A DNA stretch of 32,661 nt. Source: a virus. The position numbers and the translations under genes were made by a program. A model generated the notes under the pieces. That model did no database searches. It had not been told where the DNA came from and saw only the letters and a program-made list of their open reading frames with translations. The stretch is from positions 1 through 32,661 of IMG/VR virus record IMGVR_UViG_3300025769_000465; one strand, written 5' to 3'. Below are positions 6,286 to 25,714 of this stretch, piece after piece (positions within the stretch are counted from its first letter, which is position 1; the number at the start of each line of letters is the position of its first letter).

Positions 6286-6576
6286 ATGCAATCCAAAACC
6301 GGAAGCGTTGTTGAGACGTTCATCACAATTATTAGGGACAATATTGGGAATGCGTGCGGCATTTATGTTGCAAAAAAATGGTTTGGAATTGACATTTCTA
6401 TTGGATTACAAATTGCGATTGGATTACAAATTTATAATGCGGTAGGCACCTATATTCAACGAAGAATATTCAATAAATATGGGGAGTCTATTGTGCTTTT
6501 TACAACGAAGGTGTTTGAGGCTATTGTACTTTTTACAAAGCAGGTGTTCAATAATGCAAAACCAAAAAAAAATTAA
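6286..6576 (+). CDS. Small membrane protein, DUF7220-like
   Basis: A 96-residue protein with two hydrophobic segments separated by FGIDISIG and followed by YIQRRIFNKYGES. The outline (short polar N-terminus, VVETF, helix, FG(I/L)..S.G, helix, Y.LRR.F) matches the small phage family DUF7220, function unknown. No Shine-Dalgarno site precedes ATG 6286; a TATAAT box ends six bases before it, so translation is probably leaderless. The last 23 bases overlap the next gene. The C-terminal part carries an imperfect 33-bp direct repeat (IVLFTTKVF then IVLFTKQVF). Confidence 0.6.
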   Translation: MQSKTGSVVETFITIIRDNIGNACGIYVAKKWFGIDISIGLQIAIGLQIYNAVGTYIQRRIFNKYGESIVLFTTKVFEAIVLFTKQVFNNAKPKKN

Positions 6577-6839: not shown

Positions 6840-6878
6840 TTGGACATATTAAAAACAATCGATACGTATTGAGGCTAA
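6840..6878 (+). promoter_or_regulatory. Possible promoter with TTAGCCTCA motif (reverse orientation)
   Basis: The 120-bp gap before 6950 holds TTGGAC (6840-6845), 17 bp, then TACGTA (6863-6868), a moderate sigma-70-like match. TTGAGGCTAA (6869-6878), the complement of the recurrent TTAGCCTCAA motif, overlaps the expected transcript start. Position and recurrence suggest an operator. Confidence 0.4.
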
Positions 6879-6949: not shown

Positions 6950-7360
6950 TTGTGCATGGATCAAGCAAATATATATCGTGAATTATCCGACGTAGAAGCA
7001 TTTTGTGCTGATGTCTTGGAAATTGGCGAGGATTTATGGGAATTACGTGAAAAGTTACTTATTAATATTATTAATATAGGGGTAACAGATCATTCCTACA
7101 TTATAAGTGCTGAAATTAAAAAATTAACTGAGCTTGGGAAAAAACTAGGCTTGTTATTAGAATTCATTACGAGGGCATTAATCGCTATAGGAAATAACGA
7201 TGTCCCATATCACGTAACCGACTTTTTATTGGAAGCTGAAAGGCTAGTACTACTTTATGTAAAGCAATATGAATCAGGTGATTTGCCGTCTAACTTTTAT
7301 CACGAGTTAGAGGAATTGTTAAATGATTATTTAGATAAGGAGGTACATTATTATGGCTAA
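6950..7360 (+). CDS. Hypothetical helical protein, first gene of the replication block
   Basis: A 136-residue, Leu-, Glu- and Ile-rich, probably all-helical acidic protein (residue composition favours an amphipathic helical bundle; no catalytic motif seen). The frame begins at TTG 6950, 5 bases after GAGGT; ATG 6956 is an alternative start with a longer spacer of 11. It overlaps the RecB-like nuclease gene by 8 bases, so it is coupled to it and may be an accessory of DNA processing. I do not recognise the family. Confidence 0.5.
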   Translation: MCMDQANIYRELSDVEAFCADVLEIGEDLWELREKLLINIINIGVTDHSYIISAEIKKLTELGKKLGLLLEFITRALIAIGNNDVPYHVTDFLLEAERLVLLYVKQYESGDLPSNFYHELEELLNDYLDKEVHYYG

Positions 7361-8162
7361 ACACATATCAATATCCCAAATTAATAAGTATTTGGGGTGT
7401 GGGGAGGCATACCGGCTACAATATATCGAAGGCATTAAACAGCCACCAAATGTTTCCATGATAAAAGGATCAGCGTTTCATAAGGTTGCGGAAACTAATA
7501 ATATCCAAAAAAAGGTGACTAAGACTGATTTATGCTTAGATGAGCTAAAAGAAATTGCAAGTAACGATTTGGATTCAAGATTTGATAGTGAAATTACATA
7601 TAAAAAAGATGAAAAGGACAATTTATCTAAAACAAAAGGTGATGCTAAAGATAGTTTAATGGTGGCAATAGATCAATTGGCAATTAACACAAAAGACGTT
7701 ATTCCAATTGAAACTGAATCGGAATATAACATACAAATTCCTGGCATAGCAAAGCCATTAAAAGCAATTATTGATTGCATTACGGATGACAATAGAGTTA
7801 TTGATTATAAAGTCACAGGGAAGCCAAAAACCCAATTAGAAACTGATGTCGATATACAATTAATGGCTTATGCATTAATACATCGTGTATATTTTGACAA
7901 TTTTCCAAAACTTGAGTTTCACAATTACGTAACCAAGCATACTAAAACTAAGGGGCATGAGACATTATTTAAAAAAATATCAACTGAACATAATGAAAAT
8001 TCAATTACCCCATTAATTAATACATTAAGAGTCGTTACCGAAAGCATTGAAAAAGGTATATTTTTACCAGCAGCTAAGGGGTCATGGCAATGCAGCCCAT
8101 CAGCATGTAGTCATTATCACAGTTGCAAATACATTCACGGTCAATCGAGGTTTGGAATATGA
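7353..8162 (+). CDS. Cas4/RecB-like PD-(D/E)XK exonuclease with Fe-S cysteines
   Basis: A 269-residue protein with the RecB-family nuclease core: GSAFHK (residues 39-44, His43), ID at 140-141, VIDYKV (149-154, Asp151 and Lys153) and QLMAYAL (169-175). Cys16 together with Cys247, Cys252 and Cys258 in the C-terminus gives the one-plus-three Cys arrangement that holds a 4Fe-4S cluster in Cas4 and AddB. Phage versions degrade or resect DNA ends during replication and recombination. GGAGG... is at 7339-7342 upstream of the ATG. No cas1/cas2 or CRISPR is near, so a recombination role is more likely than adaptation. Confidence 0.8.
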   Translation: MAKHISISQINKYLGCGEAYRLQYIEGIKQPPNVSMIKGSAFHKVAETNNIQKKVTKTDLCLDELKEIASNDLDSRFDSEITYKKDEKDNLSKTKGDAKDSLMVAIDQLAINTKDVIPIETESEYNIQIPGIAKPLKAIIDCITDDNRVIDYKVTGKPKTQLETDVDIQLMAYALIHRVYFDNFPKLEFHNYVTKHTKTKGHETLFKKISTEHNENSITPLINTLRVVTESIEKGIFLPAAKGSWQCSPSACSHYHSCKYIHGQSRFGI

Positions 8163-8806
8163 GTATTTTAAACTTCATTAACAAGAAACTTACTTTGCAA
8201 ATTTTTTGCACGGTATATGAAAAAAAAGAAATAGAATACACCACCCACGAATCATTAATGTGCCAAATGCCGTTTAAGTGTGATAAGGCTACATTTAGGC
8301 GGCATATGATTGCATTGTTAGAGGCCAAATTAATTCAATGCACATTTCATGAAACATACAAAGTTATTAGTTTAAATAATGCAATAGATCAAGAATTAGA
8401 TTCCACGCCAATAGAGCCTGAGCCACAACAACAGGCTTTAATACCAGTAGCCACAGTGCCATACAAAGATATTTTAAATCAGTGGAATGAATTTGCCGCT
8501 CAACATGGGTTAGCCCAAATAATTAAGTTAAATGAGCAAAGAAAAGCTGGAATAAGGGCCAGACTTACAGAAAAAGAGTTTTGCTTAGATAAGATTTTAG
8601 AAGCAGTAGCACAAAATGATTATTTTTTTGGGAACAACAATAATGGCTGGAAAATAACTTTTGATTTTATTTTTTGCCGAACATCTTCTTATTTAAAAAT
8701 ACTTGAAGGGTTTTATTCAAAAAATGATCAAAAAAACGTTACACAACTGAACTACAAAGACAAAGCGCAAATTAATTTTATTGAAGGGATGAAAGCAATA
8801 TCATGA
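8159..8806 (+). CDS. Phage replication initiator / helicase-loader-like protein (lambda O-like C-terminus)
   Basis: A 215-residue protein. Residues 1-80 look like a winged helix (QIFCTVYEKKEIEYTTHESL, then FRRHMIALLEAKLIQ). Residues 105-200 have the pattern W-x-GLA-x-I-KL-x-QRKAGIRARL, FFGNNNNGWKITFDFIF and LKILEGFY, which is the C-terminal signature of phage replication proteins that recruit the helicase. ATG 8159 overlaps the nuclease stop (ATGA) and has GAGG at 8147-8150; an upstream in-frame Met exists but would lie inside the nuclease gene. It sits first in a row of replication genes. No iterons were seen within it, unlike the other initiator-like gene at 16470. Confidence 0.65.
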   Translation: MSILNFINKKLTLQIFCTVYEKKEIEYTTHESLMCQMPFKCDKATFRRHMIALLEAKLIQCTFHETYKVISLNNAIDQELDSTPIEPEPQQQALIPVATVPYKDILNQWNEFAAQHGLAQIIKLNEQRKAGIRARLTEKEFCLDKILEAVAQNDYFFGNNNNGWKITFDFIFCRTSSYLKILEGFYSKNDQKNVTQLNYKDKAQINFIEGMKAIS

Positions 8807-9427: not shown

Positions 9428-10003
9428 ATGGATTTTGATTTTGATAATTTAGTAGTAACACATAAAGAAAAAGAGTATGAAAAAATAAAGCCCGGTTTAC
9501 ATAACGCAATTTGTGTTGGGGTATGGAATGTTGGCCCACACAAAACTGAATATGGAATTAAAAATAAATTTATTATTGGGTTTGAGGTTGAGCAACGGAA
9601 TACGCAAACAAATGAACAAATGTTGCACCTTGATATTTATACCATGAGCGTGCACCCAAAAAGTAAATTTGGAATGTTATATGAATCTTGGTCAGCTAAA
9701 AAATTAAAAGATGAGGATCGATCAAAATTTAATTTTTCACAATGTGTAGGTAAAAAAGCAACATTAAACATTATTCATAATGAAAAATACGTGAATATAT
9801 CGGCTATTCTACCAGCACAAGATGGTAATTCAATTAAATCAGAGGACGTTCTTAAAGGTGAAGTTCCTAACTATGTAAAAACAATGCGTGCAAAGGCGGT
9901 TATAAATGACAATGAGCCACAAATTAATATTGATGACGTTAAACCTCTTAAAGACTTGGAGAAGAAGCCAGAGGCTGAAAACACTGAAAAGGCACCATTT
10001 TAA
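9428..10003 (+). CDS. Single-stranded DNA-binding (OB-fold) protein
   Basis: A 191-residue protein. It shows the phage SSB-like layout: KPGLHNAICVGVWNVG, FIIGFEVEQ, YTMSVHPKSKFGMLYESW, CVGKKATLNIIHNEKYVNIS, then a charged, disordered C-terminal third that ends in an acidic stretch and APF. An acidic tail ending in PF is the part of bacterial SSBs that contacts partner proteins. AAGGAG is at 9414-9419 upstream of ATG 9428. Location among the nuclease, initiator and resolvase genes supports a role in coating replication intermediates. The OB fold itself is inferred, not visible as a strict motif. Confidence 0.6.
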   Translation: MDFDFDNLVVTHKEKEYEKIKPGLHNAICVGVWNVGPHKTEYGIKNKFIIGFEVEQRNTQTNEQMLHLDIYTMSVHPKSKFGMLYESWSAKKLKDEDRSKFNFSQCVGKKATLNIIHNEKYVNISAILPAQDGNSIKSEDVLKGEVPNYVKTMRAKAVINDNEPQINIDDVKPLKDLEKKPEAENTEKAPF

Positions 10004-10242: not shown

Positions 10243-10441
10243 TTTCGCAGAATATCAAGGGAAGTCTTTCGTGTATAACCCTAAAGGGACTACAACTAAG
10301 TATTCAGCAACTTTTAAACGCATAGTTGAAGAAAACGGAAAGTTATTGTGTGAACTTAAACTAGCAAATGTTGGCACGGTTAAAGCTGAGGCCACCAATG
10401 ATTTGCTTAAACAAATCAAGAGTAGGAGTCAATTTTTATGA
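10223..10441 (+). CDS. Hypothetical protein (72 aa)
   Basis: A 72-residue basic protein (MPLKKDSFAEYQGKSFVY start, ATFKRIVEENGKLLCELKL in the middle, LLKQIKSRSQFL end). The short strand-rich central part could be a small beta-barrel, but no family is recognised. It starts inside the cold-shock gene, with GAGGTAGA upstream at 10214-10221, and overlaps the RuvC-like gene at ATGATG by four bases. Confidence 0.5.
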   Translation: MPLKKDSFAEYQGKSFVYNPKGTTTKYSATFKRIVEENGKLLCELKLANVGTVKAEATNDLLKQIKSRSQFL

Positions 10442-10869
10442 TGATTATGGGGATTGATCCTGGTGTTAAAGGGGCATTTTGTGCGATGCCCCAATCTAAC
10501 CCAGAAATACATAATGTGATTATAACTGAGTTTAAAAATTTAACCGACAACGAAATCATATTGGCAATTAAAGAAATCATGCCGGATGTTGTGTATCTTG
10601 AATCGGTATTTCGAGTGGATAAACTTGTGGCGCACCGAGGTTTTTTGCGTGGGGTATGCATTACATTTAATATCCCAGTACACGATGTGCGACCACAAGA
10701 ATGGAAATCAGAATTAAAAATACCACAAATGAAATCATTAAGTAATGCGCAACGTAGAAAAGACGAGCTTAATTGCGTCAATAATTTATACCCATTTCTT
10801 GAAGATGCGAATAGAGATAATGCCGCCTCAGTTTGCATCGCAGAATACGGAAGAAGAAAAGCTAAGTGA
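10438..10869 (+). CDS. RuvC-like Holliday-junction resolvase
   Basis: A 143-residue RNase-H-fold resolvase. GIDPGVKGA (residues 5-13) holds the first catalytic Asp; VVYLESV (51-57, Glu55) the second acidic residue; HRGFLRG, VRPQEWK and NRDNAASVCIAEYG (125-138, Asp127) match the RuvC-type phage resolvases. It would cut branched DNA before packaging, consistent with TerL farther along. ATG 10438 follows AGGAG at 10422-10426; ATG 10441 is also possible. Co-transcribed with the SSB-like and cold-shock genes. Confidence 0.85.
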   Translation: MMIMGIDPGVKGAFCAMPQSNPEIHNVIITEFKNLTDNEIILAIKEIMPDVVYLESVFRVDKLVAHRGFLRGVCITFNIPVHDVRPQEWKSELKIPQMKSLSNAQRRKDELNCVNNLYPFLEDANRDNAASVCIAEYGRRKAK

Positions 10870-13384: not shown

Positions 13385-13781
13385 TATACAAGATTTAATA
13401 CAAAAAATACTAGCAAGTCTTAAACAGCCGCACGTTTTTAATGAAAAGAAAATGTTTCAACTAATGTGCGGCATTAACATGTATAGCAATAATAATTTTA
13501 GTCAATTGGTAGATTTATATTACAATAGCCCATTAAGTAAATATAACAATCTTAATCCGAGCAGAATTCGATTTATTAAGAGCCAAATACAATATGAGAT
13601 TACACAAGAACCAGAACATATAATTGATACAAATGCGAGACTAAACAAGTTGTACAAATGGGTTACACTCTACATGAAAATTTATTTTAAAAAAGGTCAG
13701 CTTGGGTATCTCAAACCAATACTACAAAAAATTAATGCAAATTTGGGGCATATGTTGTATAGAATTATACCCGAACAATAG
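13365..13781 (+). CDS. Hypothetical protein (138 aa)
   Basis: A 138-residue, Asn-, Lys- and Tyr-rich protein starting MDFENPNIQDLIQKILASLK, with KMFQLMCGINMYSNNNFSQL and ILQKINANLGHM. No motif is recognised. It begins 20 bases inside the SNase gene and ends at the left arm of the parA operator, so it closes this operon. Confidence 0.45.
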   Translation: MDFENPNIQDLIQKILASLKQPHVFNEKKMFQLMCGINMYSNNNFSQLVDLYYNSPLSKYNNLNPSRIRFIKSQIQYEITQEPEHIIDTNARLNKLYKWVTLYMKIYFKKGQLGYLKPILQKINANLGHMLYRIIPEQ

Positions 13782-13813
13782 TACTTGCATATTTTTTTAT
13801 ATGTAAGTACAAT
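13781..13813 (+). promoter_or_regulatory. parA promoter with overlapping 12-bp inverted repeat
   Basis: GTACTTGCATAT (13781-13792) and ATATGTAAGTAC (13799-13810) form a near-perfect inverted repeat (one mismatch) with a 6-nt T loop. TTGCAT (13785-13790), a 17-bp spacer and TACAAT (13808-13813) make a sigma-70-like promoter inside it. A protein bound to the repeat would block this promoter, as ParA/ParB operators do. Confidence 0.6.
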
Positions 13814-13839: not shown

Positions 13840-14640
13840 ATGGGTACATTGCCAATTATCTCTATTGCCAACCATAAAGGTGGTGTAGGGAAAACTACAA
13901 TTGCATGCAATCTTAGTGCTGGAATATGCAGGCAAAAAAAGAATGATGGGAAAAATTTTAAAGGGTTATTGATTGATCTAGACCCACAAGCCAACACTAG
14001 CCATACAATGGTTAAAGAGCCACAAGATGTTACTAATACAATACGCGATGCGCTTAATGGCGTATCAATGCAAGATTGCGTTTACCCCACGAAGCAAAAA
14101 AACCTTTATGTGTGCCCAAGCAATATTTACTTATTTCACGAAGAAATCAAAATGATTAATAGCCCTAGTAGTGCCTTATATTGCCAAAAAATATTAGACA
14201 ACAATCAAACCTTTTTAGATACATTTGATTTTGTATTAATTGATAGTCCACCCAATTTAGGCCCATTTATGATGAATGCCGTGTCTTGTTGCAACCATTA
14301 TATAGTGCCAATACAAGCTGGTGGTATTTATAGTTTAGTTGGTTTAAATCTATTAGAAGACCGGATCAAAGACATTCAGCATATAACGCAAAACAATATT
14401 AATTTACTTGGCTACGTACTAAATGAGTATGACGCAAGAACCAATGCGTCCAAGGAAATGTTAAGCCAGGTTAAACATTTTTATGGTAATAAAGTTTTGG
14501 AGACTGTTATTAGGCGTAACACGAATTTGCAGCAGTCACAAACGCTTAAAAAGCCTGTGTTTAGTTTGGATGCCAATTGTAATGGGGCGATTGATTTTAG
14601 CAGGCTGGCGGTTGAGGTTATTAAAAGAATTTGGAGGTAA
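13840..14640 (+). CDS. parA: ParA-family partition ATPase
   Basis: A 266-residue deviant Walker ATPase. KGGVGKTT (residues 13-20) is the signature P-loop, LIDLDPQAN (44-52) the switch region and DSPPN (135-139) the Walker B region. There is no N-terminal HTH extension. ParA proteins move plasmids or chromosomes by ATP-driven patterning on the nucleoid, with a centromere-binding partner. GGGAG at 13830-13834 precedes ATG 13840. No ParB family gene follows; the next gene is transglutaminase-like and the partner may be small or distant. The presence of ParA in a phage is the main evidence for a plasmid-like prophage. Confidence 0.9.
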   Translation: MGTLPIISIANHKGGVGKTTIACNLSAGICRQKKNDGKNFKGLLIDLDPQANTSHTMVKEPQDVTNTIRDALNGVSMQDCVYPTKQKNLYVCPSNIYLFHEEIKMINSPSSALYCQKILDNNQTFLDTFDFVLIDSPPNLGPFMMNAVSCCNHYIVPIQAGGIYSLVGLNLLEDRIKDIQHITQNNINLLGYVLNEYDARTNASKEMLSQVKHFYGNKVLETVIRRNTNLQQSQTLKKPVFSLDANCNGAIDFSRLAVEVIKRIWR

Positions 14641-15106: not shown

Positions 15107-15526
15107 ATGAAAACTAAACATGAAATCTACTACGACAAAGAAAAAACAAAACCAGTAACGGATTATAAAGTTGATGAGTATGGCTATGCAATTATCGATA
15201 CAGGCGTGTTTTATGTTTTTGGGAAGACATATGTTTGCGCCTTTGGAGATTCAACGATTTTTGCCTATGATAATTCAAGAGTTTCGGCCTATCGTAATTC
15301 AGGGGTTTTGGCCTATGACAAATCAGAGGTTTGGGCCAATGAGATTTCATGGGTTCATGCTTATGACAATGCAGCGGTTTGGGCCTATGACAATTCAAAA
15401 GTTAATTCGTATAACAATTCACAGGTTGTGAAAAGTGGCCATTCAAAGATTTTCGACTATGACAATTCAACGGTTTGGACCTACGATTTTCCAAGTTTGG
15501 GTAAAAGGAGAATTAATGGAAAATAA
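15107..15526 (+). CDS. Octapeptide-repeat solenoid protein, copy 1
   Basis: A 139-residue protein with an N-terminal domain (about 45 residues, KHEIYYDKEKTKPVTDYKV) followed by about 10 octapeptides of the form x-V-x-A-Y-D-N-S, e.g. KVNSYNNS. One rung per eight residues with a regular hydrophobic Val/Ala pattern would suit a beta-solenoid. The unit resembles phage proteins with AYDNS repeats whose function is not known. The repeats carry an Asp at position 6, so the surface may be acidic. GGGAGG at 15092-15097 precedes the ATG; it overlaps the second copy by 11 bases. Confidence 0.7.
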   Translation: MKTKHEIYYDKEKTKPVTDYKVDEYGYAIIDTGVFYVFGKTYVCAFGDSTIFAYDNSRVSAYRNSGVLAYDKSEVWANEISWVHAYDNAAVWAYDNSKVNSYNNSQVVKSGHSKIFDYDNSTVWTYDFPSLGKRRINGK

Positions 15527-16440
15527 ATATGAAATTTACTATGACAAAGAAAAAACAAGACCAGTAACGGATTATGAAGTTGATCCCAATGGCTATGCCA
15601 TTCTTAATGCAGGCACTTTTTATATTTTTAAAGAAACAAGAGTTAAGACCTATAAAAAAACACTAGTTTTTGCCTATGACGATTCAACCGTTGTTGCCTA
15701 TGACGATTCAACCGTTGTTGCAAATGACAATTCAACGGTTCGGGCTTATGCCGATTCACAAGTCTTGGCCTATGACAATTCAACCGTTTGGACCTATGTT
15801 GGTCTTGGCATTTCTCAGATTTATTTGCATGACAATTCATGGGGGCAAACTCATGAAAATGCAAAAATAATTGATAGGACAGTTAAAGTAGGAGAGTTCA
15901 TTAATGAAAACTAAACATGAAATTTACTTTGACAGAGAAAAAACACAGCCAGTAACGGATTATAAAGTTGATGGGGATGGGTATGCAATTCTTAATACAG
16001 GCACTTTTTATATTTTTGGAGAAACAAAAGTTGATACCTATAAAAAAACAATAGTTTTTGCGTATGACGATTCAAAGGTTTTTGCCAATCACGATTCACA
16101 GGTTGTGGCCAATCACGATTCACAGGTTGTGGCCAATCACGATTCACAGGTTCGGGCGTATGACAATTCAAAGGTTCGGGCGTATGACGATTCATCGGTT
16201 TCGGCCTATGGTAATTTAGAAGTTGATGCCTATGGATATTCAACGGTTAAAGCCTATGATAATTCAAAAGTTTGGGCCTATGAAAGCTCAAAGGTTTTTG
16301 CCAATGGGGATTCACAGGTTCAAGCCAATAACCATTCAGAAGTTGATGCTCATCAAAATTCAAAGGTTTATGCCTTTCACAATTCAAAAGTTTGGGTTTA
16401 TGAAAATTCAAAGGTTTTTGTCAATGACAATGCAAAAATA
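15234..16440 (+). repeat. 24-bp coding repeats in three tandem paralogs
   Basis: A degenerate 24-bp unit, close to GTTTGGGCCTATGACAATTC plus four bases, recurs about 10, 5 and 16 times in the three genes. Exact adjacent copies are at 15672-15695/15696-15719 and 16087-16110/16111-16134. Identity between adjacent units is higher than between genes, which fits replication slippage or unequal recombination. Confidence 0.75.
15516..15914 (+). CDS. Octapeptide-repeat solenoid protein, copy 2
   Basis: A 132-residue paralog of the gene at 15107, with the N-terminal domain ENKYEIYYDKEKTRPVTDY and only about five octapeptide units (LVFAYDDS onward) before a diverged C-terminus that contains NAKIIDR. 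Two adjacent units at 15672-15719 are identical over 24 bp. ATG 15516 follows AAAGGAG at 15504-15510; an upstream in-frame start would lie within copy 1. The last 11 bases overlap copy 3. Confidence 0.7.
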   Translation: MENKYEIYYDKEKTRPVTDYEVDPNGYAILNAGTFYIFKETRVKTYKKTLVFAYDDSTVVAYDDSTVVANDNSTVRAYADSQVLAYDNSTVWTYVGLGISQIYLHDNSWGQTHENAKIIDRTVKVGEFINEN

Positions 16441-16488
16441 ATTGATAAGCGAGAAAAGCAAGAAAACATATGGCCAAGCCGATCTTAA
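15904..16488 (+). CDS. Octapeptide-repeat solenoid protein, copy 3
   Basis: A 194-residue paralog with N-terminal domain KHEIYFDREKTQPVTDY and about 16 octapeptide units (IVFAYDDS through KVFVNDNA) before NAKIIDK. Units 2-4 are near-identical at DNA level (24-bp AATCACGATTCACAGG... units at 16087, 16111 and 16135). The three copies differ mainly in the number of units. ATG 15904 lies after AGTAGGAG at 15888-15894 and overlaps copy 2, so the three are coupled. It overlaps the Rep gene by 19 bases. Confidence 0.7.
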   Translation: MKTKHEIYFDREKTQPVTDYKVDGDGYAILNTGTFYIFGETKVDTYKKTIVFAYDDSKVFANHDSQVVANHDSQVVANHDSQVRAYDNSKVRAYDDSSVSAYGNLEVDAYGYSTVKAYDNSKVWAYESSKVFANGDSQVQANNHSEVDAHQNSKVYAFHNSKVWVYENSKVFVNDNAKIIDKREKQENIWPSRS

Positions 16489-17543
16489 ACTACTTTTCAG
16501 ACGAACAAAATATATCGAAAGATGTTGATATTAGCATGTTTTTTGAGGGACAAACCAGGGACAAACCAGGGACAAAGCAGGGACAAACCGGAGACAAACC
16601 AGAGACAAAGCAGGGACAAACCAGAGACAAACCGGAGACAAACCAGAGACAAACCGGAGACAAACCCACATACAATGTTGATATTAGCATCGCCCAATTA
16701 AGGGGTGTTCAACGTCAAATTTTAATGTTTTTTTACGATAATTGCGAAACAAATAATTCTCTTAAAACCCAACCTATGACATTAAACGAGATATCGCACG
16801 AATTGAGGCTAAAAAAGGAAACAGCAAAGAAAAGCATCCAACGCTTAATCGATAAAAAACTTATAAAAAGAGTCTTGTATCAGTGTGGAAGGCGGTCATT
16901 TAGCATCTTTCAGTTTAATAAAATTACAATAAATAAAATAAGAGACAAACCAGGGACAAATGAGGCCGCGCGTAGTAGTAGTATATTATATACTAATAAG
17001 TATAATACTACAGATACTACTACTACTCCGCTGCGCTCCGTTAGCATGGTAAGAAGATTTCAGGAGTCCGTCAATAGTAAAATTGAAATTGATATCAGCC
17101 CATTATCTGACATAAATTTAAACCACGGGCATATAAAGCAATTACTCAAACTTGGTGTATGCCAAAACATCATCCAAGAAAGCATCAATGCATTTGCGTA
17201 TGACCTACAAAACGGCTACCGCAAAAAAACAGATTTCAAAATAAGTCCAATTGCCTTCTTAATTGGCGTATTAAAAAATAATGACCCCTACATCGCTCAT
17301 TTGAGTTTTTACAACAAAGAAAAACAGGCCCTTGAAGATTTAAAACAACGAAAAAGGGAGTTAGATGGCATTATTTACCAGAAAAACAAGATTAACTTCG
17401 AGTTATGGCTATCAAAATTAAGCCACAATGAACAAATTAATATTTTAGGACTCAATACCAAGGAGGTTGAAAAATTATTACCAGAAATGAAAAATAAGAT
17501 GTTATACAAGTATTACGTAGAGAGATGCTCAATAAACAACTAA
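16470..17543 (+). CDS. Plasmid-type replication initiator candidate with internal iterons
   Basis: A 357-residue protein. Residues 27-66 are an 11-residue repeat of the form GQTRDKPGTKQ made by DNA iterons. Residues about 73-150 form a winged helix (SIAQLRGVQRQILMFFYD; LNEISHELRLKKETAKKSIQ; LIDKKLIKRVLYQ). Then a Ser/Thr-rich linker and a helical C-terminus (LGVCQNIIQESINAFAYDL; FKISPIAFLIGVLKN). This architecture, with TG(N/D)KPGT-type repeats beside a winged helix, is one I know from gammaproteobacterial plasmid and integrative-element proteins thought to be replication initiators. Like lambda O, the origin may lie in the gene. Initiation function is inferred. It overlaps copy 3 by 19 bases. 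Confidence 0.55.
   Translation: MAKPILNYFSDEQNISKDVDISMFFEGQTRDKPGTKQGQTGDKPETKQGQTRDKPETNQRQTGDKPTYNVDISIAQLRGVQRQILMFFYDNCETNNSLKTQPMTLNEISHELRLKKETAKKSIQRLIDKKLIKRVLYQCGRRSFSIFQFNKITINKIRDKPGTNEAARSSSILYTNKYNTTDTTTTPLRSVSMVRRFQESVNSKIEIDISPLSDINLNHGHIKQLLKLGVCQNIIQESINAFAYDLQNGYRKKTDFKISPIAFLIGVLKNNDPYIAHLSFYNKEKQALEDLKQRKRELDGIIYQKNKINFELWLSKLSHNEQINILGLNTKEVEKLLPEMKNKMLYKYYVERCSINN
16550..16667 (+). repeat. Iteron array: ten 11-bp direct repeats (ACAAACCRGRG)
   Basis: Ten full units start at 16550, 16561, 16572, 16583, 16594, 16605, 16616, 16627, 16638 and 16649, with an eleventh partial unit to 16667. Variants are ACAAACCAGGG, ACAAAGCAGGG, ACAAACCGGAG and ACAAACCAGAG. One further full unit lies at 16945-16955. 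The array is flanked by ATGTTGATATTAGCAT at 16522-16537 and again at 16675-16690. The 11-bp period is one DNA turn. Confidence 0.9.
16972..17026 (+). repeat. Nested AT-rich inverted repeat inside the rep gene
   Basis: GTAGTAGTAGTAT (16972-16984) is perfectly complementary to ATACTACTACTAC (17014-17026). Inside it TATTATA (16984-16990) pairs with TATAATA (17000-17006). The segment is AT-rich and codes for the Ser/Thr-rich linker. It could be a melting site near the iterons. Confidence 0.65.
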
Positions 17544-17635: not shown

Positions 17636-17666
17636 TGGCCTAGCTGATGTGGAAATTACTAGGCCA
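17636..17666 (+). repeat. Inverted repeat, 8-bp arms and 15-nt spacer (left of HTH gene)
   Basis: TGGCCTAG (17636-17643) and CTAGGCCA (17659-17666). It lies in the gap after the rep gene and before the small ORF at 17689. Could be an operator or RNA hairpin. Confidence 0.6.
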
Positions 17667-17688: not shown

Positions 17689-17778
17689 ATGTTGTACAAT
17701 AATAAATACACTTTACTAGTGGAAGGTAACACTATTAACTATTCATTGTCAAATATTTTTTTTGGATTAGGGGGATAA
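17689..17778 (+). CDS. Small leader-type ORF (29 aa)
   Basis: MLYNNKYTLLVEGNTINYSL start with AAAAGGGAG just upstream; it ends at TAA 17776-17778, directly before ATG 17779 of the HTH gene. A well-spaced Shine-Dalgarno and gapless junction support translation, perhaps as a coupling leader. No motif is seen. Confidence 0.45.
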   Translation: MLYNNKYTLLVEGNTINYSLSNIFFGLGG

Positions 17779-18054
17779 ATGAAATTTGCCAGTTTTCTTG
17801 AAGGTAAGCTGGTGTGTGGTGAAATGAGTATCAGTGGTTTAGGGAAGGAATTGTCCGTTAGCCGGCAAATGATTTACCGTTGGTTAACCGGTGAAGCCAG
17901 TCCTACACCTAAAACGCTTATGCGCATTAAAGATACGATTGAATTAGAACCAGGGGAAGTCGGGGAAATGATTGGTGCATGGCTCAACGATCAAGGCTTA
18001 AATGAAATTATTAAGTTATACATCCATGAGCAATTGATCAAGCAGCTCAATTGA
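17779..18054 (+). CDS. Small HTH (XRE/Cro-like) DNA-binding protein
   Basis: A 91-residue protein. SISGLGKELSVSRQMIYRWL (residues 18-37) is a helix-turn-helix of the XRE type, followed by TGEASPTPKTLMRIKD. The C-terminal half looks helical and ends in YIHEQLIKQLN. It lies between two similar inverted repeats and just upstream of the 11-bp iteron array at 18151, so it could bind either. A repressor, a copy-number regulator or the missing centromere-binding partner of ParA are all possible. The gene lies directly behind a 29-codon ORF with no gap. Confidence 0.65.
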   Translation: MKFASFLEGKLVCGEMSISGLGKELSVSRQMIYRWLTGEASPTPKTLMRIKDTIELEPGEVGEMIGAWLNDQGLNEIIKLYIHEQLIKQLN

Positions 18055-18068
18055 TCTATATTAATCAC

Positions 18069-18099
18069 GCCGGTAGTTGGATTGCATAAGGCTACCGGC
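18069..18099 (+). repeat. Inverted repeat, 8-bp arms and 15-nt spacer (right of HTH gene)
   Basis: GCCGGTAG (18069-18076) and CTACCGGC (18092-18099). Geometry equals that of the repeat at 17636-17666. No strong T run follows, so terminator function is uncertain. Confidence 0.55.
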
Positions 18100-18135
18100 C
18101 CCTACATTTTAGTAAAAAAAATAACCCCAATATTG

Positions 18136-18282
18136 CTAGCCTCAAATTATTGATCAATTTATGTTCAATAAATATTCAGTTTGTGATCAACTTTTGATCA
18201 AAATGAGCGTACAGAAGGGTTCATTTTATGTTCAACTTATATTCAATTTATGATCATATAATAAATAAGCATTTAGCCTCAA
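18136..18282 (+). repeat. Iteron array: nine 11-bp repeats (TGWTCAAYTTA) bracketed by TAGCCTCAA
   Basis: Units begin at 18151, 18162, 18173, 18184, 18195 and, after a 23-bp step, at 18218, 18229, 18240 and 18251; steps within each block are exactly 11 bp. Cores read TGATCAA, TGTTCAA, TATTCAG, TGATCAA, TGATCAA, GGTTCAT, TGTTCAA, TATTCAA and TGATCAT. CTAGCCTCAA (18136-18145) and TTAGCCTCAA (18273-18282) flank the array. There is no gene here; the region is 518 bp of AT-rich non-coding DNA from 18055 to 18573. Array function (origin, centromere or operator cluster) is not determined. Confidence 0.85.
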
Positions 18283-18368
18283 CGTATAAAATAGCAATTC
18301 GTTAAAAATAATAAAAAAACATTAAGTATCCCATGATTAACTACTTTTAACTAATAATAAAATACTTT

Positions 18369-18397
18369 TTGACAGATTTTGAAAATTATGGTAAAAT
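18369..18397 (+). promoter_or_regulatory. Strong sigma-70-type promoter, rightward
   Basis: TTGACA (18369-18374), 17-bp spacer, TAAAAT (18392-18397). No ORF with a ribosome binding site follows on this strand, so it may drive an RNA. Confidence 0.7.
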
Positions 18398-18403
18398 TAA
18401 TAA

Positions 18404-18674
18404 TGTTGTGAAACGACGTAAGACGTGAACAACGGTTTAAACTTTTAGTTTATATAATGAGATTTAATACAAAATTTAAACAAAAATTATTTATGAAGAG
18501 GGGCATGTCACCTTAACCTAAAAAAAAATAGTTTTAGTTAAAATTAGTTAAAAATGGTAAATCTTGACTAATGTTAGTGGGAATGATTTTTCAAATAATA
18601 CTCAATAGGGAATATAATATACATAACATACCCGTCACGCCTCTCAACGATGCGCATTTTGGACGGGTTTTTTC
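18404..18674 (+). ncRNA. Candidate untranslated RNA ending at a hairpin terminator
   Basis: The expected transcript starts near 18404 and ends at a hairpin with ACCCGTC (18630-18636) and GACGGGT (18662-18668) followed by a T run. About 270 nt carry no convincing ORF; the longest is a 48-codon frame that runs through the terminator without a binding site. It is antisense to the end of the leftward small-gene cluster (18574-18711). Confidence 0.4.
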
Positions 18675-18711
18675 TTTTAGTTATATAAGTGATCACTTTT
18701 ATTGCCATCAT
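18574..18711 (-). CDS. Small basic leftward protein (45 aa)
   Basis: Frame MMAIKVITYITKRKNPSKMR continuing IVERRDGYVMYIIFPIE and ending KNHSH. Starts within the upstream gene's stop (ATGATG overlap) so it is coupled. The RDGYVMYIIFPIE part looks like a real beta-strand protein rather than random sequence. A hairpin that would terminate rightward transcripts lies inside it. Confidence 0.4.
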   Translation of the reverse strand: MMAIKVITYITKRKNPSKMRIVERRDGYVMYIIFPIEYYLKNHSH

Positions 18712-18809
18712 CTATAACCTCTAATCAATCTTATCCGCCCTAATAGATTCAATTTTATTTTATACTTGTTTTTTATGCGGTTTCTGATTTTCCTTTTATT
18801 AATTAACAT
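18708..18809 (-). CDS. Small, very basic leftward protein (33 aa)
   Basis: MLINKRKIRNRIKNKYKIKL followed by NLLGRIRLIRGYR; about half the residues are basic. AAGGGG lies 5 bases before the ATG. It overlaps the upstream gene by 11 bases and the next gene by 4. Nucleic-acid binding is a guess from charge. Confidence 0.35.
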   Translation of the reverse strand: MLINKRKIRNRIKNKYKIKLNLLGRIRLIRGYR

Positions 18810-18948
18810 GGAAACCCCTTAATGGTATATTTATTCTATCGGCTGGAACCTTCTTTATACACTTTACGTTTTTTACTCTGTTCCAGCCCCACAAAAACCC
18901 TTTATATTTATCCCATAACATAAGCTCGTATTTGTAATTTTTGGTCAT
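18799..18948 (-). CDS. Small leftward protein (49 aa)
   Basis: MTKNYKYELMLWDKYKGFLW then GWNRVKNVKCIKKVPADRIN and ending IPLRGFHVN; rich in Trp, Tyr and Lys. ATG overlaps the stop of the upstream membrane peptide (ATGA), a typical coupling signal. Not recognised. Confidence 0.4.
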   Translation of the reverse strand: MTKNYKYELMLWDKYKGFLWGWNRVKNVKCIKKVPADRINIPLRGFHVN

Positions 18949-19046
18949 GAGGTCACCCAACTTATAATGGTTAAGACCATTACCATTATCAACATCATAA
19001 ATATCGTTATTTGCCCAAGTATTATTTTTTTTCTTATACTATCCAT
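18945..19046 (-). CDS. Small leftward membrane peptide (33 aa)
   Basis: MDSIRKKIILGQITIFMMLI then MVMVLTIISWVTS: a short basic N-terminus and one transmembrane segment. GGGAGAAG is 6-7 bases before ATG, a good ribosome binding site. Overlaps neighbours by a few bases. Function unknown; possible toxin-like or superinfection-exclusion peptide. Confidence 0.45.
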   Translation of the reverse strand: MDSIRKKIILGQITIFMMLIMVMVLTIISWVTS

Positions 19047-19173
19047 TAGTTTCTTCTCCCATGATTTGATACCACATCTGATCAATTAATACTTTTACTA
19101 CTCCTAACTCATGCTTTATTTGCTTTACATGACAATATTTTAATTGGTTATAGGTAATTATAGAATTTCTCAT
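19039..19173 (-). CDS. Small leftward protein (44 aa)
   Basis: MRNSIITYNQLKYCHVKQIK and later VVKVLIDQMWYQIMGEETNG. It has no clear binding site; translation would depend on coupling to the gene 3 bases upstream. Overlap with the next gene is 8 bases. Confidence 0.3.
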   Translation of the reverse strand: MRNSIITYNQLKYCHVKQIKHELGVVKVLIDQMWYQIMGEETNG

Positions 19174-19176
19174 AAT

Positions 19177-19269
19177 TTATTTGTTAAACCCGAAAATTAC
19201 TTTACCCTGGATTATTTCTATTATATCTACATCATCACCTGGCATTATTATTTCTACTTGATTGTTCAT
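19177..19269 (-). CDS. Small leftward protein (30 aa)
   Basis: MNNQVEIIMPGDDVDIIEII then QGKVIFGFNK; acidic. TTAGGAG lies 11-17 bases before ATG. A CCTAAC/GTTAGG inverted repeat on the leader overlaps this site, so initiation could be controlled by RNA structure. Not recognised. Confidence 0.45.
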   Translation of the reverse strand: MNNQVEIIMPGDDVDIIEIIQGKVIFGFNK

Positions 19270-19300
19270 TTGTTCTTTTCTCCTAACCTTGCTATAGTTA

Positions 19301-19348
19301 GGTGTCCGATTGTTGTTTTCCGTGGATAGATAAATGCAGTTGGACACC
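19301..19348 (-). repeat. Inverted repeat GGTGTCC ... GGACACC
   Basis: GGTGTCC (19301-19307) and GGACACC (19342-19348) with a 34-nt spacer, between two leftward genes. Possibly an RNA hairpin; weak. Confidence 0.35.
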
Positions 19349-19360
19349 CTTTTAAATTTG

Positions 19361-19765
19361 TTAAATTATGTCAATTATTTTTTCTATTTTTTTGTTGTAG
19401 TGGATTTTTGTGTCAATCATGTAAACACTTAGGGCTTTCTGTTTAATGCCATGAACGCTTCCGTTTTTTTCTGCGATAAACCTAATTAAGTGGGTGTAAT
19501 GAGATAATTGTGTTTCTTTAAATTCCTTAACCGTTGCTCCATAGGGCCGAACTAATTTTTCTATGGCAACATAAATAAATTCATTATTACCAGCTTCTTC
19601 TTTTAATTGGTTGAACTTTTCCATTAAAACAGCGTCTTTTCTGTCTTCATCTAGACCAAAATTAAATTCTACATAATCTAGATAGTGTTCACGCCTAATT
19701 TCAATCACAAACCGAGTTAATAAATCTTTATATTTTTTTGTATTTTCAATATTTTTTGTTTTCAT
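19361..19765 (-). CDS. Leftward hypothetical protein (134 aa)
   Basis: A 134-residue protein starting MKTKNIENTKKYKDLLTRFV, with RREHYLDYVEFNFGLDEDRK in the first third and KEFKETQLSHYTHLIRFIAE near 80. No recognised motif. AAAGGAG lies just upstream of ATG 19765, and the start overlaps the upstream gene's stop (ATGA), so it is coupled to it. Early leftward location suggests a host-takeover or immunity role, but this is not shown by sequence. Confidence 0.55.
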   Translation of the reverse strand: MKTKNIENTKKYKDLLTRFVIEIRREHYLDYVEFNFGLDEDRKDAVLMEKFNQLKEEAGNNEFIYVAIEKLVRPYGATVKEFKETQLSHYTHLIRFIAEKNGSVHGIKQKALSVYMIDTKIHYNKKIEKIIDII

Positions 19766-20519: not shown

Positions 20520-20984
20520 ATGGGTCAACTTAATAAGCCGATATTAGTTCAGGATAAAGAATTAATAGACCTATACCACAGTGGTATGGATACTGAGCTA
20601 TTAGCCAAAGCCTTCGCCGTCACACCTGAATACATAATTAAACTGATTAAGGGTCAAGACATAACACCTGACCAAGAAGCCCAATTTCTCAAGGATTCTC
20701 TAGTGGAAGGTAGAAGGGTGTATAATAAAGGCACAAGCTTACTATTGCGTTGTTATAACATCATAGAGACCAAAATTAATAAAGAGGCTAACTACCTAAC
20801 GCCTAGTGACCTTAGCAAGCTTGTAACCGCTATAAGCAACTCACAGATCGCTATAGGTAAGAACATTACACAGCTGAATATGAATCAACCAGTGAATGCT
20901 GAGTCATCATTGCATAATGCTAAAAAAGAGTCTAAAGAGGCATTAAAACAGCTAGCTGAGAATACCGTTATTGGGGCTGGATAA
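20520..20984 (+). CDS. HTH-containing protein; possible small terminase or regulator
   Basis: A 154-residue protein. Residues 14-45 (ELIDLYHSGMDTELLAKAFA and VTPEYIIKLIKG) form an HTH. The C-terminal half is helical (LSKLVTAISNSQIAIGKNIT) and ends in a polar tail. HTH plus helical oligomerisation region fits small terminase subunits as well as regulators. It is separated from TerL by 5 kb of accessory genes, which argues mildly against TerS. Start is ATG 20520, leaderless as judged from the promoter. Confidence 0.45.
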   Translation: MGQLNKPILVQDKELIDLYHSGMDTELLAKAFAVTPEYIIKLIKGQDITPDQEAQFLKDSLVEGRRVYNKGTSLLLRCYNIIETKINKEANYLTPSDLSKLVTAISNSQIAIGKNITQLNMNQPVNAESSLHNAKKESKEALKQLAENTVIGAG

Positions 20985-21885: not shown

Positions 21886-22311
21886 ATGAGACTAATTGAT
21901 GCGAAAATAGCACTTATGTATATTACGCATTTTTATAATGGGTCAAGATATACAATAAAGACAACCAAAAATAAAGATGCGTATAAACTAGAAAATATTG
22001 ATGGAACTCATTGGAATTTATATATAAGAGAGCTTGATGATTATTCAATTATGATTTCGGATAATGGTGAGGGGATTAAGTATTTAGAGGGTTTAGGGAT
22101 TGATGTAGAGGGGGATGGAGTTAAAAAGGAGATTGCTAAGATTTTAGATAGCATGGGATTGGAATTAAGTGACAGCAAATGTATTTTTAATGAATTTAAA
22201 TGGAAGTCAAACTCTGCCCCATTCCTTGTTTATCACGCTTTAAGAGACATTGAGGATATAGGGAAAATATATACTCAATACAACAGGATTTTTAAGGAAA
22301 ACAAATGTTAA
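21886..22311 (+). CDS. Hypothetical protein, DUF1828-like
   Basis: A 141-residue protein. YSIMISDNGEGIKYLEGLGI (residues 52-71) followed by DVEGDGVKKEIAKILDSMGL has the DUF1828-like order TDdG..l..L...gi ... (I/L)L...G.E.L. DUF1828 proteins are linked with phage or toxin-antitoxin loci, function unknown. ATG directly follows the previous stop and ends overlapping the next gene by 7 bases. Confidence 0.45.
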   Translation: MRLIDAKIALMYITHFYNGSRYTIKTTKNKDAYKLENIDGTHWNLYIRELDDYSIMISDNGEGIKYLEGLGIDVEGDGVKKEIAKILDSMGLELSDSKCIFNEFKWKSNSAPFLVYHALRDIEDIGKIYTQYNRIFKENKC

Positions 22312-22958
22312 AGATATATTCTGATAGAGAGCGAACGAAGCCATGTGATTTAAGTTACCAAGGTACATTAGTTATTTATTCTGGTGAGTATTACATTGTA
22401 AATAAAGATAGTTCTAAGCCTGAAAAAGTTAGGGTTCATGGTGATTCAAAATTATATGCTTATGGTGAGGGGGTTCACATTGAGGCGTATGGCAATTCAT
22501 GTGTAACCTTATTTGATGGGGCGGTGGCAACGTTAAATGATGAGAGCATGTTAATGTTAGACCATAATGACCCGAACAATGGTTATAGTGAGGGTGGGTT
22601 TAGGGTGTATCGTGATTTAAGGGATGATGGGATGGTAGGCTCGCTTATGTATAAATTTGGTAGTCATACTATGCTTCACGAGATTCCTAAATGGGTGGCA
22701 TCCCCTATATGGGGGGATTGTTGGTTTGAAGAATTTAAATGTTCTTTATATGTTGCATTTCGTGGAGGGGATGAGCCTTCGCTATTTTATTATGACAGTT
22801 TAAAGACAAAGACTATTTTTGAATATGAGAGTAATGAGGATATAGGGTTTAAGGTTAGGTTACGGGATATGACCGATAAAGAAAAGCAAAATGCAGAAGA
22901 AAAAAAGCGTCAAATGGTAGAGCTTTTATCGGGAGGTGGCCCCATAACATTCTGCTAA
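22305..22958 (+). CDS. Solenoid-repeat protein with KIYSDRERTKP N-terminus
   Basis: A 217-residue protein. MLKIYSDRERTKPCDLSYQG parallels the N-terminus of the octapeptide proteins at 15107, 15516 and 15904 (IYYDKEKTKPV...). Residues 46-83 carry degenerate octads (KVRVHGDSKLYAYGEGVHIE AYGNS). After about residue 90 the sequence differs, with a Gly- and Trp-rich C-terminal domain (KWVASPIWGDCWFEEFKCSL). A distant family member in a second locus. Function unknown. Confidence 0.6.
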   Translation: MLKIYSDRERTKPCDLSYQGTLVIYSGEYYIVNKDSSKPEKVRVHGDSKLYAYGEGVHIEAYGNSCVTLFDGAVATLNDESMLMLDHNDPNNGYSEGGFRVYRDLRDDGMVGSLMYKFGSHTMLHEIPKWVASPIWGDCWFEEFKCSLYVAFRGGDEPSLFYYDSLKTKTIFEYESNEDIGFKVRLRDMTDKEKQNAEEKKRQMVELLSGGGPITFC

Positions 22959-23883: not shown

Positions 23884-24016
23884 GCAAGTATTTATTGGAA
23901 TATCCATAAGCGTGGGGTTATACCTATTAACTTTTATTGTTTTATGGGAGTGGATACCTTATGCATTTATGAGTTGGTATATATTTTTAAAGGATTGGAG
24001 TAAAACAAATGAATAA
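23870..24016 (+). CDS. Small membrane protein (48 aa)
   Basis: MITPRQVFIGISISVGLYLL then TFIVLWEWIPYAFMSWYIF and KDWSKTNE: one or two transmembrane segments. AGGAGG at 23856-23861 is well spaced. It overlaps both neighbours by a few bases. Function unknown. Confidence 0.55.
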   Translation: MITPRQVFIGISISVGLYLLTFIVLWEWIPYAFMSWYIFLKDWSKTNE

Positions 24017-24611
24017 ACAACAAGTTCAAAAGCGAATCCATAAGAATAACCAGTTATTAGACTTAGATTTATTTCAATGGGATGAGAATAGCAAGGTATT
24101 GCGAACCAAGGAAAGTAATATACAGTGTTATTTTCATGGCATAGATGGGGTATCTTTTTATGTTGGTGGAGGGTGTTATATTGCGGCTGGGGATAACATT
24201 ACGGTTCGTGGTTTATCGGATAACGAGATAAAAATTGGTAATCATGGTGATATACGAGCGTTTGATAATGTAAAGTGTGTAGCTGGGGATGATTCCGTAT
24301 TTAATGTTGGAAGCAATGTTGAAATGACAGTTGGTCATAATTCCAAAGGCAAGGTAAAGGATTGTTGTGTAATCGAGGTATTGGGGATGGGAACATTGAT
24401 TGCTGGTAATAATTGCAAGTTTATTACTGGTGGCAATTCCATTATACGTATGGGGAGTAGTTGCAAGGTATACCGTTACGATATTAAGGAAATTATTGAT
24501 ATGGATTTAGTGAAGGATAAGCATACAGATATTGCTAGATACGATTTAAAGATCGAGTTAAATGATAATGGGATTAGTGGATATAGGGTGTTACCAAGAT
24601 ATGGATATTAA
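24009..24611 (+). CDS. Beta-solenoid repeat protein
   Basis: A 200-residue protein. Residues about 40-150 show short Gly/Asp/Asn-rich strands, e.g. VGGGCYIAAGDNITVRGL, IKIGNHGDIRAFDNVKCVAG, FNVGSNVEMTVGHNSKGKVK, and FITGGNSIIRMGSSCKVYR. This repeating (I/V)x(A/V)GxN pattern suits a beta-helix. N- and C-termini differ from the octapeptide group. TTGGAG precedes the ATG. Function unknown. Confidence 0.55.
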   Translation: MNKQQVQKRIHKNNQLLDLDLFQWDENSKVLRTKESNIQCYFHGIDGVSFYVGGGCYIAAGDNITVRGLSDNEIKIGNHGDIRAFDNVKCVAGDDSVFNVGSNVEMTVGHNSKGKVKDCCVIEVLGMGTLIAGNNCKFITGGNSIIRMGSSCKVYRYDIKEIIDMDLVKDKHTDIARYDLKIELNDNGISGYRVLPRYGY

Positions 24612-24982: not shown

Positions 24983-25714
24983 ATGTCACCACGAGCAGTA
25001 GGTTATTTAAGGGTTTCCACACGTAAACAAGAAGTATCTATGCAGAAAATGGCTATATATGAGTATTGCGCTAAGCATGGATTTAAGATTGATGAGGAAG
25101 TTGGGGATATGATTCATGTTATTTGTAGCTCAACTAAGGGGGTTGAGAATCGAATGATTAACCGGGTATATGAATTAGAGGACGGTGATCATTTATTATT
25201 TTATTCGATATCTCGGTTAGCAAGAACACTTAGGCAGGCCAATGAAATAATTGAGGATTTATATACGAAGGGTGTTGTAGTTCATTTAATCAAGGAAGGA
25301 TTGGTATTAGATAGTAAAAAACCTTCCCCAGCAGTTAAGATGTTTGTTAATATTTTAGCATCGTTTGCCCAATTTGAGCGTGAGCAATTAAGTGAGCGAA
25401 CAAAAGATGGGTTATATGCGGCGATGTCAGCTGGGCGAATGCCCGGCCCCAAAAAAGGGTCAAAGCGTGGCAGCAAACTTGACAAATACACTAATGTTAT
25501 CTTAACGTGGTATTGCGAACGCAATTGGAGTAAGGCGAGAATCGCAAGGAAATTAAATGATATAAAGGGGAAAGATGGGAAGCCATTGGGATGTTCATAT
25601 ATTTCTTTGCATAATTTCTTAAAGAAACGTGAGATTGCGGCTTTAATAAAAGTTAAACAAGAAGAAATAGAAAATCAAGAAAATGAATTAATAAAGCGAC
25701 TTAATCCACAATAA
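24983..25714 (+). CDS. Serine recombinase (resolvase/invertase family)
   Basis: A 243-residue protein. VGYLRVSTRKQEVSMQ has the nucleophile Ser12 with Arg10; SRLAR (residues 76-80) is the conserved arginine helix, and FEREQLSERTKDGLYAA the E helix; the C-terminal HTH follows (NWSKARIARKLN). The size is that of Tn3/gin-type resolvases, not large integrases. AAGGAGG at 24968-24974 precedes ATG 24983. In a ParA-carrying phage-plasmid it could resolve multimers or invert a DNA segment; no inverted repeat target was identified. Confidence 0.8.
   Translation: MSPRAVGYLRVSTRKQEVSMQKMAIYEYCAKHGFKIDEEVGDMIHVICSSTKGVENRMINRVYELEDGDHLLFYSISRLARTLRQANEIIEDLYTKGVVVHLIKEGLVLDSKKPSPAVKMFVNILASFAQFEREQLSERTKDGLYAAMSAGRMPGPKKGSKRGSKLDKYTNVILTWYCERNWSKARIARKLNDIKGKDGKPLGCSYISLHNFLKKREIAALIKVKQEEIENQENELIKRLNPQ

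Follow-up and report, generated by a model that had tools for sequence, protein, structure and literature searches.

What does a non-coding array of short direct repeats do in a phage genome that also encodes ParA? The question is raised by a 32.7-kb IMG/VR virus record, the whole 32,661 nucleotides of which we refer to as the window. It encodes a terminase, a portal and a major head protein and is a fragment of a tailed phage genome. Near-identical contigs (G001-G003) span the structural genes and reveal that the genome extends beyond the window. No integrase was found among the proteins scanned, the tyrosine type included, and a serine recombinase gene is located at 24983-25714. The phage appears to persist as a plasmid, that is, to follow a phage-plasmid lifestyle. 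A sequence-only reading had taken the array for a replication origin or a centromere. This was the right frame, given the parA-rep-HTH cassette in which the array lies and a counterpart array upstream of parA in a related phage (L005), but it missed a probable initiator, encoded from 16470, with iterons of its own. We favour the reading that the array is a putative partition site (a parS-like centromere) of a phage-plasmid, with a probability of about 0.5.

Layout of the array and its surroundings

Direct reading of the sequence gave nine non-coding 11-bp units within 18151-18261, arranged as five units, a 12-bp spacer and four units (Table 1). All nine unit starts reported earlier (18151, 18162, 18173, 18184 and 18195, followed by 18218, 18229, 18240 and 18251) were right when the sequence was re-read. 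The units follow the consensus TGTTCAATTTA, each agreeing with it at 7-10 of 11 positions. The core TGWTCAA, previously ascribed to every unit, was slightly idealised: it is exact in five (18151, 18162, 18184, 18195 and 18229), whereas the other four read TATTCAG, GGTTCAT, TATTCAA and TGATCAT. Absent from the earlier description was the relationship between the blocks, with units 6-9 identical to units 1-4 at 32 of 44 positions at an offset of 67 bp. The array is indeed non-coding, as neither strand of 18069-18570 contains an ORF longer than 30 aa.

On an 11-bp lattice, TRWTCA recurs at up to five consecutive positions. Dinucleotide-shuffled sequence never gave a run above two, whether the intergenic region (500 shuffles) or the whole window (60 shuffles) was randomised. 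The period-11 score was likewise raised, at 44 versus 36.7 +/- 1.3 in shuffles (n = 300, maximum 42). Because 11 bp makes one turn, bound proteins had been expected to line one face of the DNA. That applies inside each block but not exactly to the two together, since at 10.5 bp per turn blocks 67 bp apart are not exactly in phase.

Table 1. Coordinates of the array, its flanks and the associated cassette in the window.
Feature	Position	Strand
parA, Walker-type, 266 aa, no N-terminal HTH	13840..14640	+
Inverted repeat before parA, GTACTTGCATA-N8-TATGTAAGTAC	13781..13810	
rep ('X'), wHTH and helical C-terminal domain, replisome-organizer-like	16470..17543	+
Iterons of 11 bp inside rep, GACAAACCAGA/G, with a motif other than that of the non-coding array	16546..16666	+
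HTH_3 gene, 91 aa, candidate array reader	17779..18054	+
Left box, CTAGCCTCAA	18136..18145	+
Block 1, five 11-bp units: TGATCAATTTA, TGTTCAATAAA, TATTCAGTTTG, TGATCAACTTT, TGATCAAAATG	18151..18205	+
Spacer, AGCGTACAGAAG, 12 bp, lattice shift +1 bp	18206..18217	
Block 2, units 6-9 of 11 bp each, a divergent copy of the first four units	18218..18261	+
Very A+T-rich stretch adjoining the array, G+C down to 18%, unwinding-element-like	18262..18400	
Right box, TTAGCCTCAA	18273..18282	+

The boxes noted earlier on both sides of the array are present. The 9-mer TAGCCTCAA occurs six times in the window (~0.3 expected), at 6515, 6869, 12971, 16803, 18137 and 18274, with four of these copies on the other strand and outside the array. 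Given the further copies, the box is not unique to the array and the link between the two is uncertain; TAGCCTCAA had no consistent association with arrays in other loci.

To the right of the array G+C falls to 18-22% (18250-18400), an adjacent A+T-rich region as expected of an iteron origin, and six GATC sites lie at 18036-18255. No exact DnaA box (TTWTNCACA), which is not universal at iteron origins, was found within 18000-19400, the only exact boxes in the window being at 9733 and 29525. The segment 18404-18680 folded no better than its shuffles (z 0.06).

A probable initiator gene with iterons of a different motif

The gene ending 0.6 kb upstream of the array encodes a protein whose AlphaFold model has a winged-helix domain (~75-158) and a helical domain (~205-357), both with good local confidence. 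Its PDB matches were MarR-type winged helices, and lambda GpO, replisome organizers, replication initiators and DnaD were among the viral matches with a name. Whole-chain TM-scores were low because disorder separates the domains. In the 11.9-kb plasmid pBdHAGR4, which carries a homologue, there is no other clear initiator, one gene having a weak replication-relaxation match. On the basis of the fold matches and this plasmid we named the product Rep; it is a probable lambda O/DnaD-like replication initiator. It resembles lambda ori and the O-type replisome organizers in predicted fold and in carrying in-gene iterons. Unlike lambda O, the rep family is linked to parA and found on plasmids, and the non-coding array is an extra element. 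No close relatives of Rep were found in viral contigs and phage records, and a Rep-alignment scan with patterns drawn from the repeat region returned L005 only.

The array is thus linked to an initiator gene, but its motif is not the iteron motif of that initiator: the window's rep contains one match to the non-coding motif against 1.9 expected. As rep has 11-bp iterons of another motif, the array is a weaker candidate for the primary origin and a stronger one for a partition or incompatibility site. As an origin, or as an additional iteron cluster serving copy control or incompatibility, the array would be bound by Rep (or by an O-like lytic protein encoded at 8123-8806) and the adjacent A+T-rich stretch would melt. 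The proximity of rep, the low G+C of the flank and the GATC sites fit this explanation, which we regard as possible. It sits less well with the lack of an exact DnaA box near the array, with the dense array already present inside rep, the usual origin of lambda O-like initiators, and with the difference in motif, whose likeness to the family motifs is at shuffle level.

The protein encoded at 8123-8806 may itself be another replication protein, of phage type (wHTH and, by eye, a DnaD/O-like C-terminus; no Pfam match), which suggests separate lytic and plasmid replication.

The cassette NTPase is a Walker ParA (Pfam AAA_31, 1e-38; PHROG ParA-like, 5e-51) and not an actin-like ParM as in R1-type parMRC. 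No ParB or ParG was recognisable, leaving rep and the HTH gene as candidates to encode the centromere-binding protein. The region before the window's parA (13781-13810) contains no direct-repeat array. Cargo genes at 15107-16488, 22305-22958 and 24009-24611 contain tandem repeats of 24 bp (8-aa units, e.g. VxAYDNSx), and three such genes are inserted between parA and rep.

The array geometry is shared with a related phage

Contigs G001-G003 stop short of 11-20.9 kb, and the array region could be compared only with the more distant relative L005 (record G004), whose ParA stands at 52% to that of the window. Scans for ParA gave L005 as the sole match among viral contigs and no match in genomes. 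L005 has the same parA-rep-HTH cassette, with rep directly following parA and containing 12-bp in-gene repeats. Its array (7845-7933) is directly upstream of parA and consists of four units, a 12-bp spacer and three units in 11-bp steps. In both phages 23 bp lead from the last unit of block 1 to the first of block 2, and autocorrelation peaks at 11, 22, 45 and 56. The non-coding motif is TGTTCAATTTA in the window and AGTGGGTGTTG in L005, in each case unlike the in-gene motif. The expectation that relatives would conserve the array was therefore borne out for the 11-bp pitch and block geometry but not for the motif. A single TAGCCTCAA copy in L005 is located ~20 bp before its in-gene iterons.

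Geometry was compared in these two phages only, and by our own estimate a common shift and spacer could arise by coincidence in roughly 1 in 10 to 1 in 30 cases. Unrelated motifs on a common scaffold suggest one type of nucleoprotein complex with diverged specificity. The absence of the non-coding motif from the rep iterons calls for a second reader and function, and a second reader protein of the non-coding array is likely in both phages. When viral contigs were scanned with the array motif, tandem TRWTCA arrays turned up 54 times, never in a phage that shares Rep or HTH. Arrays of short period built on this core are thus common, and the motif alone is no proof of kinship.

The best candidate for this reader is the small HTH protein. 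A homologue (28% identity) also follows rep in L005, and no such gene occurs in the plasmid modules examined. This phage-only presence is the main reason to propose it as the putative reader, together with the adjacency of its gene to the array. The L005 homologue (10398-10688) has an in-frame TGA at the HTH motif, which may be nonsense, a sequencing error or a readthrough codon and weakens the case unless it is an error. No close relatives of the HTH protein were found in viral contigs and phage records, and a model computed for it in isolation was of unusable quality (pLDDT 52). In both phages the HTH gene is preceded by a leader (window 17636-17666 and ~17689-17778; L005 ~10260-10395) made up of a hairpin (TGGCCTAG/CTAGGCCA in the window) and a short ORF with a ribosome site that ends at the HTH start, a possible case of attenuation or translational coupling.

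An HTH protein encoded next to putative binding sites could also be a prophage repressor, with the array as its operators controlling nearby promoters such as that at 18369-18397. The adjoining HTH_3 gene, palindromic units such as TTGATCAA and an extra TTGATCAA inside the 3' end of that gene would suit such a role. We nevertheless judge it improbable, as the nearest strong promoter is more than 100 bp from the array, the motif is not clustered before the HTH gene or other operons, and nine head-to-tail units on one strand would be unusual for repressor operators.

The position of the L005 array also bears on a packaging (pac) site for the small terminase subunit, which we consider highly improbable. 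Direct repeats can occur in pac sites, as in SPP1 (PMC4737164), the contigs look circularly permuted, and a possible small-terminase gene of putative identity is found 2.3 kb further along (20520-20984). The array is not in or beside this putative terS, however, and its equivalent in L005 is directly before parA, 5.5 kb from the corresponding gene.

The cassette belongs to a parA-rep family on plasmids

Searches with tblastn identified Rep homologues on plasmids of Cardinium, Bdellovibrio, Legionella and Piscirickettsia. A profile scan added homologues from Legionella, Rickettsiella, Aquirickettsiella and an alphaproteobacterial MAG, and a Bandiella homologue was recovered with a Legionella homologue as query. 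A match in Cysteiniphilum is unannotated and near the end of its record. Elements of Piscirickettsia, Legionella, Rickettsiella, Bdellovibrio, Bandiella and Cardinium have rep directly after parA, and in every record inspected the annotated Rep homologue follows a parA family gene. The rep copy of p2PS3 is split, with its first fragment beside parA. In Piscirickettsia the family is present in 102 plasmid records. Published work on plasmids pPSLF89-2 and -3 of this genus lists partition genes but no replication protein, and reports no origins or iterons in any of four Piscirickettsia plasmids (PMC6963756). No description of a parA-rep family with paired arrays and without ParB was found in the limited literature searched. 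The gene set around the array is a member of a plasmid-maintenance family that is widespread and poorly described.

Arrays with units of 11-13 bp, located in rep, before parA or in both places, emerged from shuffle-controlled lattice scans of nearly every module. Each module's non-coding array then supplied a matrix with which that module's own rep was scanned. The non-coding motif was far commoner in rep than in shuffled sequences for 12 of 17 modules (no more than 3 of 100 shuffles gave as many sites), although several of the 12 are close relatives and do not represent independent events. The exceptions were the window, L005, Cardinium, a Legionella plasmid without an in-gene array and one further Legionella module. 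A motif shared by both arrays suggests a single reader protein in those 12, and in most plasmid modules that reader would probably be Rep. This also speaks for an origin, as Rep should bind at both arrays there. The window's non-coding consensus was no more similar to the family iterons, over nine bases, than were shuffles. Covariation of the Rep recognition helix with the motif (Mantel p 0.0016) was lost once near-identical helices were dropped and is accordingly treated as weak.

The homologous modules of Piscirickettsia, Legionella, Rickettsiella, Bdellovibrio and Cardinium resemble that of the window, with parA directly upstream of rep and 11-13-bp iterons in rep and/or before parA. They differ in mostly sharing a motif between arrays and in lacking the HTH gene, whereas the motifs of the phages differ; in the window, cargo genes separate parA and rep.

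The array as a putative partition site

A Walker-type ParA is encoded in the element, and the non-coding direct-repeat array lies near the par genes. Non-coding 11-13-bp arrays upstream of parA in the homologous plasmid modules lend further support to a partition site. Upstream of parA is the usual place of a ParA centromere. Several findings count against the assignment. The array of the window is 3.5 kb from parA (and 0.1 kb from the HTH gene) and not upstream of it, the motifs of the two phages differ, and the L005 HTH gene contains the in-frame TGA. The A+T-rich flank and GATC cluster would suit an origin too, and the Rep motif in the non-coding array of most plasmid modules fits an origin or copy control equally.

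Direct-repeat centromeres on phage-plasmids are already known (PMC7157519), as are 11-bp centromere units, the latter from R1 parC as cited in PMC9426499. In extrachromosomal mycobacteriophages parS consists of direct repeats, with one set just downstream of repA in Miko and Rachaly (PMC7157519). As in RedRock, Miko and Rachaly, the window combines a phage apparently kept as a plasmid, ParA and non-coding head-to-tail repeats. By contrast, the repeats of RedRock are 8 bp long and these mycobacteriophages have a dedicated ParB gene beside parA, where the window lacks a recognisable ParB and its 11-bp units form two blocks. The parC site of plasmid R1 has ten 11-bp direct repeats around the par promoter and is bound through them (PMC9426499), and its head-to-tail units in two blocks match those found here. 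R1 uses actin-like ParM and ribbon-helix-helix ParR, unlike the Walker ParA and HTH/wHTH proteins of the window, in which the array is not at the parA promoter. In pSM19035, parS comprises 7-10 contiguous heptads read by omega, with delta as the ParA-like protein (PMC4498918). ParA-type partition with tandem short repeats as the centromere, putative here, is common to both, but the pSM19035 units are 7 bp and their reader is a ribbon-helix-helix protein.

If the array is a partition site, Rep would start replication at its own in-gene iterons and the HTH protein (our best guess; otherwise Rep) would load side by side on the 11-bp units, forming a filament in two blocks. The resulting complex would engage or activate the ParA ATPase on the nucleoid, and ParA action would let both daughter cells inherit the prophage plasmid.

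An orphan abiF RNA near the array

An abiF RNA (Rfam RF03085) is encoded 370 bp from the array (18631-18668, plus strand), and a second in L005 (6817-6780, minus strand), both above the gathering score. The two are 92% identical over 48 bp in differing surroundings. A strong sigma-70-like promoter at 18369-18397 points at the copy in the window. No Abi_2/AbiF gene was found in the four records searched, making the RNA an orphan in both phages. RNAs of this motif neutralise the AbiF toxin in C. difficile (PMC12373285), and cyanophage S-CREM1 carries an abiF sRNA (PMC9964418). The orphan RNA is possibly a decoy antitoxin against host AbiF. Upstream of it on the minus strand of L005 are three solitary Cas12a-type CRISPR repeat hairpins, TAATTTCTACTTCAGTAGATTA (~6850-6876, 6985-7011 and 7305-7329), which recall RNA anti-CRISPRs (PMC10651486). 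Together, hairpins and abiF RNA may form a counter-defence transcript that combines an RNA anti-CRISPR with an anti-AbiF function. Such a transcript may deserve more interest than the array.

Implications for plasmid maintenance

The analysis recovers the maintenance cassette of a putative phage-plasmid and connects it with a parA-rep-iteron family carried by plasmids of Piscirickettsia, Legionella, Rickettsiella, Bdellovibrio, Bandiella and Cardinium. One rather doubtful extension is that the family is a ParB-less system built on ParA and an O/DnaD-like initiator, with iterons in the initiator's own gene as the origin and the non-coding array as the centromere. Rep would be the partner of ParA in plasmids, and in the phages the HTH protein would have taken over the second array, freeing its motif to diverge. 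The family offers a test of whether one protein can serve both as initiator and as ParA's centromere-binding partner, and of the way in which a phage keeps the two functions apart.
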